From Leptolyngbyaceae cyanobacterium M33_DOE_097 (GTDB taxonomy: Bacteria; Cyanobacteriota; Cyanobacteriia; Leptolyngbyales; Leptolyngbyaceae), in the NCBI GenBank assembly GCA_015296075.1, contig DVDV01000108.1:1-42272 (forward strand): 42,272 bases of DNA, in the 5' to 3' direction. Position numbers and translations under genes: made by a program. The notes beneath the pieces are model-generated. The model had not been told where the DNA came from. It did no database searches and saw only the letters and a list, made by a program, of their open reading frames with translations. Of this stretch, positions 36,595-42,272 are shown piece after piece (the stretch's first letter is position 1; each line of letters begins with the position of its first letter).

Positions 36595-37254
36595 TCATGA
36601 AACCCGAACTTCAGCATTCGCCTCAACTCGAAGTGGATTTTGCTCCATATAGATCTCTTGAATATCTGATGGAACAGCCGCTTGCAGTAATTGATACCCT
36701 TCTTGAAGACGCGCTTTCACTTCTGCCGGAGCAATCATTTCACCTTCTGCCTGCAAATACGCCGAGATGCGAGTCTCACTCCAGCCAAACGTCTGCGCCA
36801 TCAACACCATAATTCGCAAGTCAGGCGGCAACTGACCCAATGCCCGTTCGACATAACACCACAATGGCGGTGGCGCTTCGCTCAATGTATAGTGAATCGA
36901 CTCAACCGGAGGCAGACTCGACTGATTAATGCAAATCGCTGTCACGTTAATCAACCAACTTTGCAGGGTTACAGCCACCCCACTCTGAGTTGACAAAGAC
37001 CGCAAATCTAACCCACCCAGCTCATGAAACACGTGTCGCCAGGTACTCGCAAAGAGATAGTCAGCTTGTACGGGCGATCGCGCCGAATGCCGAATCAGCG
37101 TGTAAACCATTGAGCAATAACGGCAAAACAATGCCACAAAATACTGCCCCTGATCGGGATGCCGCTGAAACAAAGTCAAGAGGTCTTGATCACTGTAGTG
37201 GTTCAGCGCTTTAACAATGGAATGATTGCTTTCAGGAAAGGTGGGAATTTGCAC
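36595..37254 (-). CDS. Divergent ECF-like sigma factor
   Basis: This 219-residue protein starts with GTG at 37254, as no ATG is available in the N-terminal part. Residues about 20-75 (SDQDLLTLFQRHPDQGQYFVALFCRYCSMVYTLI) resemble sigma region 2. Residues about 140-195 (ALGQLPPDLRIMVLMAQTFGWSETRISAYLQ, then KARLQEGYQLLQAAVP) resemble a region 4 helix-turn-helix. It is more divergent than typical ECF factors. It forms a probable operon with the secreted TPR protein. An anti-sigma factor is not evident. A role in transcription is inferred from this pattern only. Confidence 0.65.
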   Translation of the reverse strand: MQIPTFPESNHSIVKALNHYSDQDLLTLFQRHPDQGQYFVALFCRYCSMVYTLIRHSARSPVQADYLFASTWRHVFHELGGLDLRSLSTQSGVAVTLQSWLINVTAICINQSSLPPVESIHYTLSEAPPPLWCYVERALGQLPPDLRIMVLMAQTFGWSETRISAYLQAEGEMIAPAEVKARLQEGYQLLQAAVPSDIQEIYMEQNPLRVEANAEVRVS

Positions 37255-37515
37255 AGTACGGTACCCAGGTGGCTCTTACCAGATAGATGGATTCGACCTT
37301 AAGTGAATATAGACGCTTTTTGCAAAATGGCAGCATTTTTTCAAAAATGGTTATCAAAATGGGCAAAATCCGCATCAGTCCTCAGCTTTATCCTTCCTTC
37401 AAATAGAAAATAAAATCCCGGTTTCGGTGCAACAATAAAATGCAAGATAAACTGAAGAAAGAGTGAGACTTGTCTCTCGTGTAAGTTGTTGTAATTTGCT
37501 TCTGGTTTCTGCCGC

Positions 37516-38088
37516 ATGACATTCATTGCTGTCACGTCTTCTCTCATTGCTGCCTTTCCAGGGCTAGACAGCCTGTTTTCGACCCAAGGCGTCATGGTCT
37601 TGTTGCTCGCAGCCTACGCTGTCGCCATGTGGATGTTTTTGACCAGTGCCCCCAAGGTTTACACCATGATGGTGTCTGACCTGGAGCTAGCCAAACAGCT
37701 CTATGAAGGCATGCTCAACTTGCCAGCCGCCGAAGTCCCACTGCACTATTACTACAACTACGAGCAAAGCCTGGGAACCGCTGGCATCGATCCACTCTAC
37801 TTAAGCCCTTCGATGGGGCGATCGACCGCCGTGCAGCAGCGCAACAATCAAGATGGTCTTTGGTATCAACTCAAGAAAAATACTCAACTGCACGTGATCT
37901 CAGGCGCAAGCCTAGGTGATAAGAATCGTCAACGGCACGTTTGCTTCGATCGCGACTGTTTAGAGCAAGTATTGCTGCGCGTTCAAACCCGCAATTTGAA
38001 GTACAAGATCCGGCAAGAAAGACCGCTCAACTTCTTAGTCAAAGATTACGACGGCAACATCATTGAGATGGCCGAAGTATCGAGCTAA
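37516..38088 (+). CDS. Membrane-anchored VOC/glyoxalase-like cyanobacterial protein
   Basis: This 190-residue protein has a hydrophobic N-terminus (about 5-45, including GVMVLLLAAYAVAMWMFL). A soluble domain follows with a glyoxalase/bleomycin-resistance-like pattern: YTMMVSDLELAKQLYEGMLNLP at the front and FLVKDYDGNIIEMAEV at the end. The VOC fold usually binds metals. Here the end Glu is present, but the other ligands are not obvious. The function is unknown. A strong terminator follows at 38127-38153. It is divergent from the sigma-like gene. Confidence 0.65.
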   Translation: MTFIAVTSSLIAAFPGLDSLFSTQGVMVLLLAAYAVAMWMFLTSAPKVYTMMVSDLELAKQLYEGMLNLPAAEVPLHYYYNYEQSLGTAGIDPLYLSPSMGRSTAVQQRNNQDGLWYQLKKNTQLHVISGASLGDKNRQRHVCFDRDCLEQVLLRVQTRNLKYKIRQERPLNFLVKDYDGNIIEMAEVSS

Positions 38089-38126
38089 CTCATCCCATAC
38101 CTGTCGCAAAATGAAGCAGATGCTAT

Positions 38127-38153
38127 GAAAAGGGTCCCAATGGGACCCTTTTC
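38127..38153. terminator. Bidirectional terminator between convergent genes
   Basis: GAAAAGGGTCCCA and TGGGACCCTTTTC form a perfect 13-bp stem with A and T tracts on the two sides, between the stops of the VOC-like gene and hflX. Confidence 0.88.
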
Positions 38154-38178
38154 ACGATCCAAACAAGATTACTGGATG

Positions 38179-39795
38179 TCAATTCTGCTCCCCAAAGCTG
38201 GAATCACTGGAGGTTACTGAATCCGTCACCGAATCGCCCCGCGTGTATTGCACCAGTTGACCCAGCTTAATCCGCAGCGTTTCTAGCCCCAGACGTTCAC
38301 TCGCAGAGATAAAAATTGCACTGGGATGTTCCTCTTTGGCTTGCATCAAGCGATCGCCATCGACCTGATCAACCTTGTTAAACGCAAGCAGTGCAGGCCC
38401 TGGCGTAATCGGCATCTGCGACAAAATATTCATCACCGCGCGAATTTGGTTTTGCCAGGCCGGATGCGACAGGTCAACCACATGTAGCAGCGCATCAGCT
38501 TCTGTGACTTCCTCTAAGGTGGCACGAAACGCATCCATCAGCGAGGGCGGCAACTCATGGATAAACCCTACCGTATCCGTCAGCAAAATTGAGCGCGGCG
38601 CATTTGTCACCGCATCGGGCACCACCAAACGGCGCGTCGTTGGGTCTAACGTCGCAAACAACTGGTCAGCCGTGTAGACCTCAGCATTGGTTAACACGTT
38701 GAGCAGCGTCGATTTGCCTGCATTGGTATAGCCCACAACGGCGATCGACGGCACATCGCGATGTTGGCGTTTTTGGCGGAGTCGGGCACGATGGGCTTGC
38801 AATTGGTTAACTTCCTGCTGCAACCGCGAGATCCGTCGTTGAATCGATCGCCGCTCAGTTTCTAATTTCGTTTCCCCCGGACCTCTCGTACCAATCCCGC
38901 CCCCCAGTCGCGACATCGCCTGTCCCCGTCCAGCGAGGCGAGGCAGCATATACTCCAACTGAGCCAACTCAACTTGCAACTTCCCAGCTCCAGAACGGGC
39001 GCGTTGAGCAAAGATATCAAGGATCACTTCGGTGCGATCGACGACTCGAAGACCAATCTGGGCTTCCAAGTTTCGCACTTGTGCGGGGGACAAGTCGCGG
39101 TTAAACACAACTAAATTGGCACCACTCGTCTGAGCTGCTAAGGCGATTTCTTGCACCTTGCCCTCGCCTACCACCGTTTGGGGATGAGGCCGCGATCGCT
39201 TTTGGCTGACTGTCTGCAACACATCTCCACCCGCCGTTTCAACCAGGCGAGCGAGTTCGGCTAAGCCATCCTTAAAGCGTTGGGGCGTATCTTGCTCGGT
39301 CTGCAAACCCACAATCAGCACGAGATCATGGTCGCGATCGACCTGCCGCGCCACAAACTCCCGCCGAAATTCTTCTTCTAGACCTTCAACTAAAGACAGA
39401 AAATCCTGATTCCCCAGTACCTCAAGACTGAGCGGTGGCGTCACTGTCCACGTCGTTTCAGGATGCGGCACCAGATGCGCCAGATAAGCGTCACGCACAT
39501 ACCCCGTTGCGCCCCCGCCACGCCGCTCAAAGCCGCTGCCTGTGAGAGTTAACGTCACTAATGCATCCAGCCGTTGCATCGCCATTGCCGTCAGTGCCCC
39601 TTTCCCCGGTGGCTCTAAACTTAACTGCGTTGCTAGACAGCGAATGCCACTTAAACGCTCAGCCCCATAGCGCGGCAACTCCAACGGCGGAATCCGCGTC
39701 TGCTGCGGTGTGCCAACCCCCACCCGGATCACCTGACCCCGGCGGTTGAGATAAACACAGATTGGCTCATCAATCTCGGTGCTAATGGCAGCCAT
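38179..39795 (-). CDS. hflX: Ribosome-associated GTPase HflX
   Basis: This is counted from the first ATG (39795, 538 aa). HflX is a GTPase that splits or rescues stalled ribosomes. Motifs are the glycine-rich GGGIGTRGPGE (298-308), P-loop GYTNAGKST (355-363), DTVGFI switch II and NKVD. A cyanobacterial N-terminal extension (ISTEIDEPICVYLNRRGQVIRVGVG) precedes the HflX domain. The open frame continues 40 more conserved-looking codons upstream to an ATC at 39915, so the true protein is probably longer. The C-terminus is a short Ser-rich tail. The gene converges on the VOC-like gene across a terminator. Confidence 0.95.
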   Translation of the reverse strand: MAAISTEIDEPICVYLNRRGQVIRVGVGTPQQTRIPPLELPRYGAERLSGIRCLATQLSLEPPGKGALTAMAMQRLDALVTLTLTGSGFERRGGGATGYVRDAYLAHLVPHPETTWTVTPPLSLEVLGNQDFLSLVEGLEEEFRREFVARQVDRDHDLVLIVGLQTEQDTPQRFKDGLAELARLVETAGGDVLQTVSQKRSRPHPQTVVGEGKVQEIALAAQTSGANLVVFNRDLSPAQVRNLEAQIGLRVVDRTEVILDIFAQRARSGAGKLQVELAQLEYMLPRLAGRGQAMSRLGGGIGTRGPGETKLETERRSIQRRISRLQQEVNQLQAHRARLRQKRQHRDVPSIAVVGYTNAGKSTLLNVLTNAEVYTADQLFATLDPTTRRLVVPDAVTNAPRSILLTDTVGFIHELPPSLMDAFRATLEEVTEADALLHVVDLSHPAWQNQIRAVMNILSQMPITPGPALLAFNKVDQVDGDRLMQAKEEHPSAIFISASERLGLETLRIKLGQLVQYTRGDSVTDSVTSSDSSFGEQN

Positions 39796-39915
39796 TCGTT
39801 GAGCAAACTCAGGCGTAGTGAAGCGATCGCCCGGTATTCGCTGGTGATAGAGCCGCTGTAGCTGCTTGAGCTGACTCGTCTTTAAGCCCTGAATATTGCC
39901 GTAAACCGTCTCGAT
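39796..39915 (-). other. Probable N-terminal part of HflX without a standard start codon
   Basis: The minus-strand frame upstream of the HflX ATG encodes 40 residues, IETVYGNIQGLKTSQLKQLQ and onward to FTTPEFAQR. I recall this as the usual start of cyanobacterial HflX, with Met where this Ile is. No ATG, GTG or TTG occurs between the upstream TAG (39951-39949) and the ATG at 39795. GGAG lies eight nucleotides before the ATC. Translation from AUC, a lost start or a sequence error are all possible. Confidence 0.6.
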
Positions 39916-39951
39916 AGACTCAACTCCAAACCCAACATATTGCCTATTCTA

Positions 39952-40239
39952 CAAATTTGTGAATTGAGTGAGACAGAAGAACGAAGATTGTCGATAAAAA
40001 TACAAATGATTCTGAAGCTTCTTGCTACAGCAAAATCAATGCCAACGCGGAGCGCCCGCCCCTGACTTGGAGGAAAATCGATTCAGTTGGCGATCTCGCT
40101 TCGGTTCACCGCGCAACAAGCTTAACTTTTGCTGTGAGATCACTGTTTTTCTTCTGAAACGGCTTAAAAAGCTTGTAGAATCTGGCATGGCTGTAACGCT
40201 ATGCATCCCTTGTTGCGTTCGTTGGCAATGACAAAAATT
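39952..40239. other. Spacer between hflX and secreted protein gene
   Basis: This holds the divergent promoters. I see no repeat or RNA gene. A 72-codon minus-strand frame here has no protein-like features. Confidence 0.45.
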
Positions 40240-40872
40240 ATGAATCAATATCAACGTATTTCAGCGTCTCTGTTTTTAAGCGGTCTTAGTGTAGCTCTCG
40301 CTCCGAGTATGGGGCTATCTCAGACAGATTTCAACTCCTTTTTTCAAGAAGGGCGAACTCGCGCTGAGAACACGCTCATCCTGACACCTCGGCCGGATCC
40401 ATCCATTCCGGTCAATCCCAACTCCGAATTTTGGCAGTTTCTCGTGTTTCGTCCGGCTGGGGTTTCGTTATGGGTGCCCCCCGGAACACTCAACGAAGAG
40501 AGCATTGTACTCAACACCCCGCTTGGCAAAATCAACTTTCGGGCGATCGCAACTGAAACAAAAGACAGCCGTTTCCTTGCAGCTTACGCACCGACCTTGA
40601 CGCCTCAACAAATCGCCAATCCAGATCGAGTCCTGAAAGCCGTTATTGATCGCGTTTCGTTGGGCGGCAAGTTCAAAGTGACACAAAACTCACCCATCAC
40701 GTTTCAGGGTCGCTCTGGGCGTGAGGTCAGGCTACAAGACAGCGATGAAACCATTGTGTTTCGGGCGTTTTTATACAACAACAAAATCTATGCTCTGGGG
40801 GTGCGGTATCCCGGTTTGAGCGCCCCTTCGCGGCAAGTCGTCGGCTATCTCAACTCTTTCTCTTTCTTATAA
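40240..40872 (+). CDS. Secreted cyanobacterial protein of unknown function
   Basis: This is counted from the ATG at 40240 (MNQYQRISASLFLSGLSVAL, 210 aa). In-frame ATGs at 40201 and 40228 would add 13 or 4 residues. A signal peptide (about 1-28, ending near GLSQ) precedes a soluble domain rich in strands: FWQFLVFRPAGVSLWVPPGTL, GKINFRAIATE, FQGRSGREVRL, and the ending YPGLSAPSRQVVGYLNSFSFL. The last pattern is common in small cyanobacterial lumenal or periplasmic proteins with a PsbP-like fold. That fold is a guess. The gene is monocistronic. Confidence 0.65.
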   Translation: MNQYQRISASLFLSGLSVALAPSMGLSQTDFNSFFQEGRTRAENTLILTPRPDPSIPVNPNSEFWQFLVFRPAGVSLWVPPGTLNEESIVLNTPLGKINFRAIATETKDSRFLAAYAPTLTPQQIANPDRVLKAVIDRVSLGGKFKVTQNSPITFQGRSGREVRLQDSDETIVFRAFLYNNKIYALGVRYPGLSAPSRQVVGYLNSFSFL

Positions 40873-40968
40873 AGCAATCTGAGATATGTGCTGAGACTGC
40901 GATAGGTTGCCCCTTAAGGGAGCCACAAACAAGTAAGACCAGTGCCAGAGCCTTCTGTGGTAGGGGGT

Positions 40969-40996
40969 TGTCATGCCCCCCCACAATGGCATGACA
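40969..40996. repeat. Hairpin between convergent genes
   Basis: TGTCATGCC and GGCATGACA form a 9-bp stem with a 10-nt C-rich loop. It lies between the secreted-protein gene and the AraC-type gene. There is no T tract on either side, so it may be a repeat and not a classical terminator. Confidence 0.55.
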
Positions 40997-41050
40997 GTTA
41001 CCTGCAAATCCCTGACTATTTTTTAGGGGCGCGTCCGTTAATCCAAAAAT

Positions 41051-42046
41051 TTACTTGATCCGTTTCAAGGTTTCTGAGGGAAGCTCGCCAAATACTTGCT
41101 TGTAATCACGGGCAAAGTAGCCAAAGTGGTAAAAGCCGCACTGAGCAGCCACTTCTGTTACGGTTGTGTCGCCTGGCTCAGCCATCTTTAATGCCCGATA
41201 AGCACTTTGTAACCGCAAAATTTTGAGGTAAGCCATCGGACTCGTGCCAAACACCTCGTGAAATCCATAACAGAGGGCACGGCTACTGCTACCCAACGCT
41301 TCGCAAAGATCGGTGAGCGTCAGAGCTTGATGCATCTGGCTCTGCAAGTAGTCAGCCGCCTGTTTGACCAGACGAGATCGCCGCAAAGCTCTGGTCGGAG
41401 GTTTTACCCGTTCCGCTTGGATGGGTAATGCGGTAATCAGCAGTGGTAAAAAGTCTTGCAAGATGAGTTGTTGAAAGGTGGGCTTTTGCAGGAGGGGCGA
41501 TCGCTGTTGCAACAACTGATGCAATTGATTCAAATAGTCGCGTAAGTAGGGCGCTGTTTCAGGAAGATAGGCAAAGTTTGGTTCCAAAAACTTCTGATTC
41601 AAATCGAGTCGATCCATCACCTGCGTACAGGCTTCAAACACCTCTTGCCGAATATGAACGGCACAGTGAGTTGAATTTCCTGGAAACACCATGTCAGCTT
41701 CCCGATCAGGGTCAAAACCCCACACGTAATCCTCAGTGATGGGCAAGTTACAAGAAATAACAGGTTGCCCCTGACCATGCATGAGAAAGGTAAACGTTAA
41801 AAAGCCTGAGTGCTTGTCTCCTTTAGCGTGCAACCTGCAATTGACATGATTGAAATTGAACTGAATGGTTTCACACAATAAAGCCATTGAGCCGCAAGAA
41901 AAAGGCTGGTGCTCTAACTGAGTCAGCGTAATGGCTTCGGGAAGAAATGCTGCTAACTCGTCAATATCCACAAAGCGGCGATACGCCACGATGCCAGAGG
42001 AAGAATTTTTGAGCACAGGCAAACTCTTCTTTAAAGGAAAATTCAA
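41051..42046 (-). CDS. AraC-family transcriptional regulator
   Basis: This 331-residue regulator has two helix-turn-helix units in its C-terminal 100 residues: KQAADYLQSQMHQALTLTDLCEALGSSSRALCYGFHEVFG, then VTEVAAQCGFYHFGYFARDYKQVFGELPSETL. The N-terminal 210 residues form a cupin-like or unclassified sensing domain (CGSMALLCETIQFNFN, WGFDPDREADMVFPGNSTHC). Cyanobacterial AraC regulators of this kind often lie beside siderophore receptor genes. A Fur-like box sits 100 bp upstream in the terminal repeat, so iron-dependent expression is plausible. Any target gene beyond the right edge is not visible. Confidence 0.85.
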   Translation of the reverse strand: MNFPLKKSLPVLKNSSSGIVAYRRFVDIDELAAFLPEAITLTQLEHQPFSCGSMALLCETIQFNFNHVNCRLHAKGDKHSGFLTFTFLMHGQGQPVISCNLPITEDYVWGFDPDREADMVFPGNSTHCAVHIRQEVFEACTQVMDRLDLNQKFLEPNFAYLPETAPYLRDYLNQLHQLLQQRSPLLQKPTFQQLILQDFLPLLITALPIQAERVKPPTRALRRSRLVKQAADYLQSQMHQALTLTDLCEALGSSSRALCYGFHEVFGTSPMAYLKILRLQSAYRALKMAEPGDTTVTEVAAQCGFYHFGYFARDYKQVFGELPSETLKRIK

Positions 42047-42130
42047 GTTTGCAAATCGTATCAGCTTTTCTCAACCACCGATCCTCTAATACTGATTCAT
42101 TTAATTTTGTGAATACACTTGATTGTTTAC

Positions 42131-42270
42131 TTCAGCAATTCTCAGTATGAGAATAATTCTCACAAAAATATTCATTTTGAACAGCTATCAATGGCTGGAA
42201 TACCCATTCTGCCGTTCATAAAATTGAGCGCACAAGCCTTTAGAGGCTCTGACTTCAGTACAAATGTTTC
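42131..42270. repeat. Right arm of terminal imperfect inverted repeat
   Basis: This is the reverse-complement match of 1-140, gapless, with about 80% identity by hand count. Near its outer edge is ATG-TTT-CAA on the plus strand (42264-42272), which could be the first codons of an outward gene. The AraC-type gene reads inward from it. Confidence 0.9.
42148..42162. promoter_or_regulatory. Fur-box-like palindrome (right)
   Basis: TGAGAATAATTCTCA is a perfect 7-1-7 inverted repeat, identical to the left one except for the central base. It lies about 100 bp upstream of the AraC-type start and about 100 bp before the outward ATG at 42264, fitting a divergent iron-regulated promoter. Confidence 0.72.
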
Positions 42271-42272
42271 AA

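Follow-up and report, generated by a model that had tools for sequence, protein, structure and literature searches.

The window analysed here is a stretch of 42,272 nucleotides from Leptolyngbyaceae cyanobacterium M33_DOE_097, whose genome is represented by 6.96 Mb in 437 contigs. Its minus strand carries hflX (Table 1), the product of which scores 472.1 bits against TIGR03156 (GTP_HflX, cut-off 216.75) and exceeds the cut-offs of PF13167, PF16360 and PF01926, as expected of a member of the HflX GTPase family. This is the sole close copy in the host genome, the second match being a distant GTPase (30%). Read on the minus strand from the in-frame stop TAG, the codons are AAT AGG CAA TAT GTT GGG TTT GGA GTT GAG TCT, then ATC, then GAG ACG GTT TAC. 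No ATG, GTG or TTG (collectively NTG) lies between the TAG and this ATC or in the 39 codons after the ATC, and the first canonical start in the hflX frame is the ATG at codon 41. A sequence-only reading of the locus had placed the expected methionine on the ATC, with GGAG eight nucleotides upstream, no canonical start back to the preceding stop and forty conserved-looking codons ahead of the first ATG. Reading the frame back to the TAG bore out each of these points, and codons 2–40 indeed evolve as coding sequence.

Table 1. Features of the hflX start region and coding sequence in the window
Feature	Position	Strand	Remarks
hflX CDS from AUC start	38179..39915	minus	578 codons + stop; TIGR03156, PF13167, PF16360, PF01926 above cut-off
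AUC start codon (putative)	39913..39915	minus	ATC/ATA in 170/190 distinct loci; T-ATC-GA 26/26 in the window's family
U at -1, proposed partner of initiator tRNA A37	39916..39916	minus	T-conservation; anticodon loop CTCATAA
GGAG, Shine-Dalgarno-like	39924..39927	minus	8 nt before AUC
TAGAAT, possible -10 promoter element	39946..39951	minus	inferred only, from TARAAT-like columns -36..-31 in the window's family
TAG within TAGAAT, in-frame stop	39951-39949	minus	
Codons 2-40, conserved N-terminal strand + helix	39796..39912	minus	AlphaFold2 model
First in-frame ATG (codon 41), rejected as start	39793..39795	minus	ATG at ungapped codon 41 in 5/190 loci

Compared with the congener G001, codons 2–40 of the window comprise 23 identical, 15 synonymous and 1 non-synonymous codon, and this excess of synonymous change indicates that the segment evolves as protein. 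In an AlphaFold2 model of the N-terminal 190 residues (30 sequences; mean pLDDT 85.4), residues 1–40 have block means of 90–96 and contain a strand (residues 4–6) and a helix (residues 13–23), so that they are a confidently predicted piece of the fold. Translation from the codon-41 ATG, with the 40 preceding codons left untranslated, would make use of the first canonical codon in the frame, but is highly improbable given the substitution pattern, the predicted folding of residues 1–40 within the domain and the fact that ungapped codon 41 is ATG in just 5 of 190 hflX loci, elsewhere being mostly a Leu codon.

Start regions were collected from 221 loci (L001–L221), of which 220 gave an N-terminal alignment; after removal of 3 paralogs and 27 duplicates, 190 distinct loci remained, a sample biased toward good matches to the query. 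Among the relatives, 57 of 58 genomes matched at E <= 0.001 (G035 weakly) and 29 loci were read besides that of the window. Across the phylum, the N-terminal query found matches in 144 of 386 genomes, and 30 loci plus 80 further stretches were read. The family f2, with small genomes and weak matches, is represented by one locus (L141, TTG at -2) and accounts for 14 of the 20 phylum misses listed; there are 222 further misses, and for those genomes the search does not show that hflX is absent. Of the 486 loci in named genomes, the 80 best were taken; the nearest, L142, comes from the genome of an uncultured member of the Leptolyngbyaceae (87% across the N-terminal 200 residues).

At the Met position, the 190 loci carry ATC in 121 cases, ATA in 49, ATT in 3, ATG in 1 and another triplet in 16. 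Close relatives, whose starts the sequence-only reading had asked to see compared, have ATC in 28 of 29 loci and ATA in the remaining one. When the count is restricted to the 121 loci without NTG between the in-frame stop and the codon, the numbers are 76 ATC (one of these loci having no stop in view), 41 ATA, 1 ATT and 3 others. ATA is found in many Nostocales and in some other lineages. The sole ATG, in L140, sits on a deep branch and has GTG at codon -2. Among the 16 loci with other triplets, ATT occurs one codon upstream in L054, L056, L057 and L118 (the aligned codon being AAT in three and AGT in one) and CTG one codon upstream in L121, while the majority of the remaining loci carry NTG upstream. 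The recurrence of ATC or ATA in all 29 relatives (28+1) and in 170 of 190 loci led us to reject a sequencing error at 39915-39913.

The third base of the codon appears to be constrained. All 26 loci of the window's family share T-ATC-GA without exception, third base included; over 300 pairs from the same family, mean identity is 50% at the third positions of codons 2–40 and 44% in the 36-nt leader. A tree of 111 full-length rows, built by a quick method under LG+G4 and leaving 38 of its 108 inner branches open, implies at least 7 interchanges of ATC and ATA. Ninety rows were selected as having ATC or ATA without NTG at -2; 69 of them have C and 21 have A as the third base, with 7 changes, compared with 17–30 changes at the third position of each of the ten codons that follow. 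ATT makes up 3 of 173 ATC, ATA and ATT codons at the Met position versus 284 of 672 Ile codons over the next 49 codons, a contrast whose statistical significance is not to be taken literally because the loci are related. Since switching from GUG to AUG (0.0398 per ancestral codon) is reported to exceed switching from AUG to GUG (0.0059) (PMC5622118), the near-absence of AUG from the hflX start is notable. As to ATT, the base that follows ATC or ATA is G in 169 of 170 loci, so that a T in third place would generate UUG out of frame (A-UUG). Start-like ATT codons are followed by C in L138 and L139 (L138 also has NTG upstream) and by A in L054, L056, L057 and L118; the only one followed by G, in L112, has ATG at codon -2. 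These few cases suggest to us that AUU may be avoided for the risk of out-of-frame initiation at UUG. Judging from these sequence comparisons, the AUC is very probably the codon at which hflX translation starts, and we put the probability of the fuller reading, an AUC start together with selection that keeps it weak, at roughly 0.8.

Codon -2 is a hot spot for canonical starts. Among 169 ATC/ATA loci it is NTG in 28 and ACG in 53, compared with 0–11 canonical starts for each of the remaining eleven codons upstream, and on the 111-row tree NTG at -2 has been gained or lost at least 11 times. In the 28 loci with NTG at -2 the start is probably canonical and the weak start dispensable. These counts could also be read to mean that the Ile codon is internal and that translation really begins two codons upstream, at ACG, GCG, AAG or NTG, giving a product that begins M-P-I-E or M-S-I-E. 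We regard this as improbable. Stops occupy codon -2 in 9 loci, which excludes a start upstream of it in those loci and led us to reject the -2 start as a general rule; in the window itself codon -2 is GAG. ACG, moreover, lacks the central U said to be universal in start codons (PMC4611024), and an internal Ile codon should use ATT at the rate of the gene, contrary to the near-absence described above. Shine–Dalgarno spacing is a weak test between the ATC and codon -2, since a match of at least 4 nt to the anti-SD complement is present in just 50 of 169 loci, at spacings of 4 to 16, and the Shine–Dalgarno sequence is thus not a general feature of hflX leaders.

The window also contains an out-of-frame ATG (39938-39936) opening 18 codons that overlap the start, and a shift or re-initiation into hflX from this ATG or from a short upstream ORF might be imagined. 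We hold such coupling to be most unlikely: an upstream ATG frame is open across the start in 20 of 190 and 11 of 190 loci in the two frames, upstream ATG ORFs that terminate close to the start (17 of 190) are rarer than in shuffled sequences (mean 36.3), and the nearest large upstream ORF in the window (40201-40872) sits on the opposite strand. No conserved upstream start or ORF feeding the hflX frame was found in the 190 loci.

The hflX leader of the window is not unusual in structure (z 0.14 and -0.17), and the interval 37000-42272 of the window gave no Rfam match at the gathering score. Nostocales-type hflX leaders, for example L176:1380-1395, carry a GGCCAG-N4-CTGGTC hairpin that ends about 10 nt before the ATA or ATC. 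A leader hairpin was detected in 62 of 144 other ATC/ATA loci, some named loci among them being close to the window's family, versus a mean of 6.35 and a maximum of 10 in shuffled sequences. The hairpin shows a few compensatory changes and modest covariation: across 36 loci, mostly selected for the hairpin, 7 cells are altered on both sides, and RNAalifold on these 36 loci gave -2.93 kcal/mol with 4 pairs. In the window's own family the hairpin occurs in 1 of 25 loci (shuffles 1.3), and it was rejected as an explanation for the window. Separately, many loci of the window's family (L004–L026) have a TARAAT-like element and, downstream of it, a motif resembling GTTGCGTTTGGC at about 23-12 nt ahead of the start; in the window (39951-39925, minus strand) this arrangement is degenerate.

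The base immediately before the codon is strongly conserved. T occupies -1 in 111 of the 117 ATC/ATA loci without in-frame upstream NTG and in 133 of the 141 without NTG at -2, versus 23.7% T over positions -30 to -2; where NTG is present at codon -2, T is found at -1 in 21 of 28. On the tree, column -1 has 4 changes, compared with 14–36 for columns -2 to -21. Three CAT tRNAs were found in the host genome, one of which (L272), which we take to be the initiator from its GGG/CCC anticodon stem, has the anticodon loop CTCATAA. With this loop, U(-1)-A-U of the message can pair with A35-U36-A37 of the tRNA. The letters CTCATAA are not special to the initiator, since the loop of a second CAT tRNA (L274) is identical. 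U at -1 is favoured in chloroplast mRNAs through extended codon–anticodon pairing, as reported in PMC4587860; hflX resembles these messages in its preference for U at -1, but whereas the chloroplast context is known from plastid mRNAs, hflX offers a conserved natural combination of U(-1) with AUC or AUA in bacteria. For cyanobacteria in general, a pair of pyrimidines at -2/-1 has been proposed (PMC5622118), and the U(-1) of hflX may be no more than an instance of it. The tRNA complement of the host genome further includes an array of nine closely spaced genes (L295, G000:C282:1055-2404) for Glu, Lys, Thr, Thr, Gly, Gly, Val, Arg and Ala, the anticodons ggt, tgt, tcc, gcc, tac and tct of which are found elsewhere in the genome too.

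The start type of hflX recurs in a second gene. The main infC of the host genome (L222) reads from ATG, and the classical infC loop is accordingly not evident for it. A second IF3 gene, here called infC2 (L223/L224; G000:C201:422-907, minus strand; TIGR00168, 136.5 bits, cut-off 60), has no NTG ahead of its conserved N-terminal region in the host. Over 36 infC2 loci (13 + 23 including the host's; L225–L236 and L326–L348, with L235 and L346 read by eye), 35 have ATC as the conserved codon and 1 (L326) has ATA, T precedes the codon in 34 (the exceptions being L233 and L326), and GAGG often lies about 8 nt upstream of it; some of these loci carry an NTG farther upstream, or TTG as codon 6, and might use another start. 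At E <= 1e-50, infC2 was found in 25 of 386 phylum genomes. The dsg gene of Myxococcus xanthus, an IF3 homologue, likewise has an AUC start; it parallels infC2 as an AUC on an IF3-like gene, and differs from hflX in both phylum and gene.

Paralogs and distant relatives of HflX vary in their starts. A second hflX (hflX2; 51-66% identity) is present in G003:C73 (L133), G242:C24 (L125) and G149:C1 (L127) as well as in G007, G022, G033 and G053, and of the three copies read, L133 has its ATG at the start position itself, L125 one codon further downstream and L127 one codon upstream. The long HflX is encoded in 5 of 18 genomes from another class of the phylum: two of these genes show ATC (L297) or ATT (L296) after AGGAGG, a third has ATG one codon upstream (L299), a fourth GTG at -2 and then ATG (L298), and the fifth ATT with canonical codons upstream (L300). 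The long-form hflX of Fusobacterium animalis (35.9% identity over 94% of the query) encodes the long N-terminal domain found in the window's HflX, but its annotated start, unlike the window's ATC, is an ordinary ATG after GGAGG.

IF3 is reported to discriminate against triplets without a 3' G (PMC4611024) and to accept solely Watson–Crick pairs at the first and second codon positions (PMC10158994), and in Staphylococcus aureus growing in poor medium AUA and AUU starts gave about 10% of the output of an AUG reporter (PMC13009471). On this basis, hflX translation would begin with fMet at the AUC (39915-39913), which the initiator tRNA would read through U(-1)-A37, A-U36 and U-A35, three contiguous Watson–Crick pairs shifted by one, the U(-1)-A37 pair replacing the lost third-position pair. 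Lacking a 3' G, the AUC would be expected to be rejected often by IF3; HflX, a ribosome-splitting GTPase, would then be made at a low rate that rises as initiation fidelity, that is IF3 per 30S, falls. Initiation at the AUC, pairing with A37 and low yield are what we infer from the sequences. The repeated gain and loss of NTG at -2 would be surprising under a strict need for low HflX levels. Control of hflX by initiation fidelity would fit the published behaviour of IF3 (PMC4611024) and the ATC start of infC2, and dependence of hflX on IF3, or its regulation by it, is a plausible consequence to which we give somewhat less than even odds.

Alternatively, the same AUC start might act as a constant throttle, holding HflX at a low level to avoid harm from excess ribosome splitting and involving no IF3-conditional regulation. 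The near-absence of AUG requires just a demand for low output, and the gains and losses of NTG at -2 look as if output were being tuned. A weak leader or promoter could serve a constant throttle as well, without such wide retention of ATC and ATA, and the same start type on infC2, an IF3 paralog, likewise speaks against it. We consider the throttle a real possibility, falling short of an even chance. On one reading or the other, the cell probably holds HflX at low abundance or couples its synthesis to the stringency of start-site selection. Returning to control by initiation fidelity, a wider proposal, which we put forward tentatively and on balance doubt, is a cyanobacterial start-codon regulon in which U-AUC/AUA on hflX (widely) and on infC2 (where present) would respond to the condition of the initiation machinery, and low IF3 activity would call forth both ribosome splitting and an alternative IF3. 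The U(-1) shift would pair through A35-U36-A37, and AUU would be avoided since A[UUG] forms an out-of-frame start.

The closest known counterpart is infC, whose start, AUA in S. aureus (PMC13009471) and AUU with autocontrol in Escherichia coli in published accounts, is like that of hflX a conserved triplet without a 3' G on the gene of a ribosome-acting factor. In the window hflX has such a triplet and no in-frame canonical start, and the weak triplet is kept across relatives (170 of 190), though with NTG at -2 in 28 of 169 loci. The two genes differ in that the infC product discriminates against its own start, whereas HflX is not IF3, the discriminating factor, which makes simple autoregulation impossible; in addition, hflX uses AUC or AUA and almost no AUU. 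Start-site profiling in Staphylococcus has identified further conserved non-canonical starts, those of ccpN (AUA) and cvfC1 (AUU) (PMC13009471). As described there, these carry extended Shine–Dalgarno motifs and are conserved among Staphylococci or between S. aureus and Bacillus subtilis, whereas in hflX the conserved feature is U(-1), and the start spans many families of a phylum. In Bacillales, the uORFC-6-1 motif likewise ties hflX to the translation state of the cell (PMC8632094), in that case through a structured upstream ORF, a proposed sensor of stalled ribosomes, rather than through a weak start codon as in cyanobacterial hflX.

A literature search, covering titles and abstract openings among the matches listed and mostly without subscription papers, did not find a non-AUG start of cyanobacterial hflX. 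A list of genes preferring non-AUG starts by Gvozdjak and Samanta (2020, arXiv) may include hflX. In the parts of its text covered here, a study of Synechocystis N-termini (PMC13339759) does not name HflX. The best reading of these sequences is that hflX is a newly recognised, deeply conserved weak-start gene of the infC type, a new gene rather than a new kind. Known conserved starts rejected by IF3 comprise infC and a handful of other genes, and gene finders limited to ATG, GTG and TTG would mis-start HflX. The hflX loci provide natural material for testing extended codon–anticodon pairing at -1. If the reading is true, a weak start on a ribosome-splitting GTPase in many families of a phylum would link ribosome rescue to initiation fidelity.
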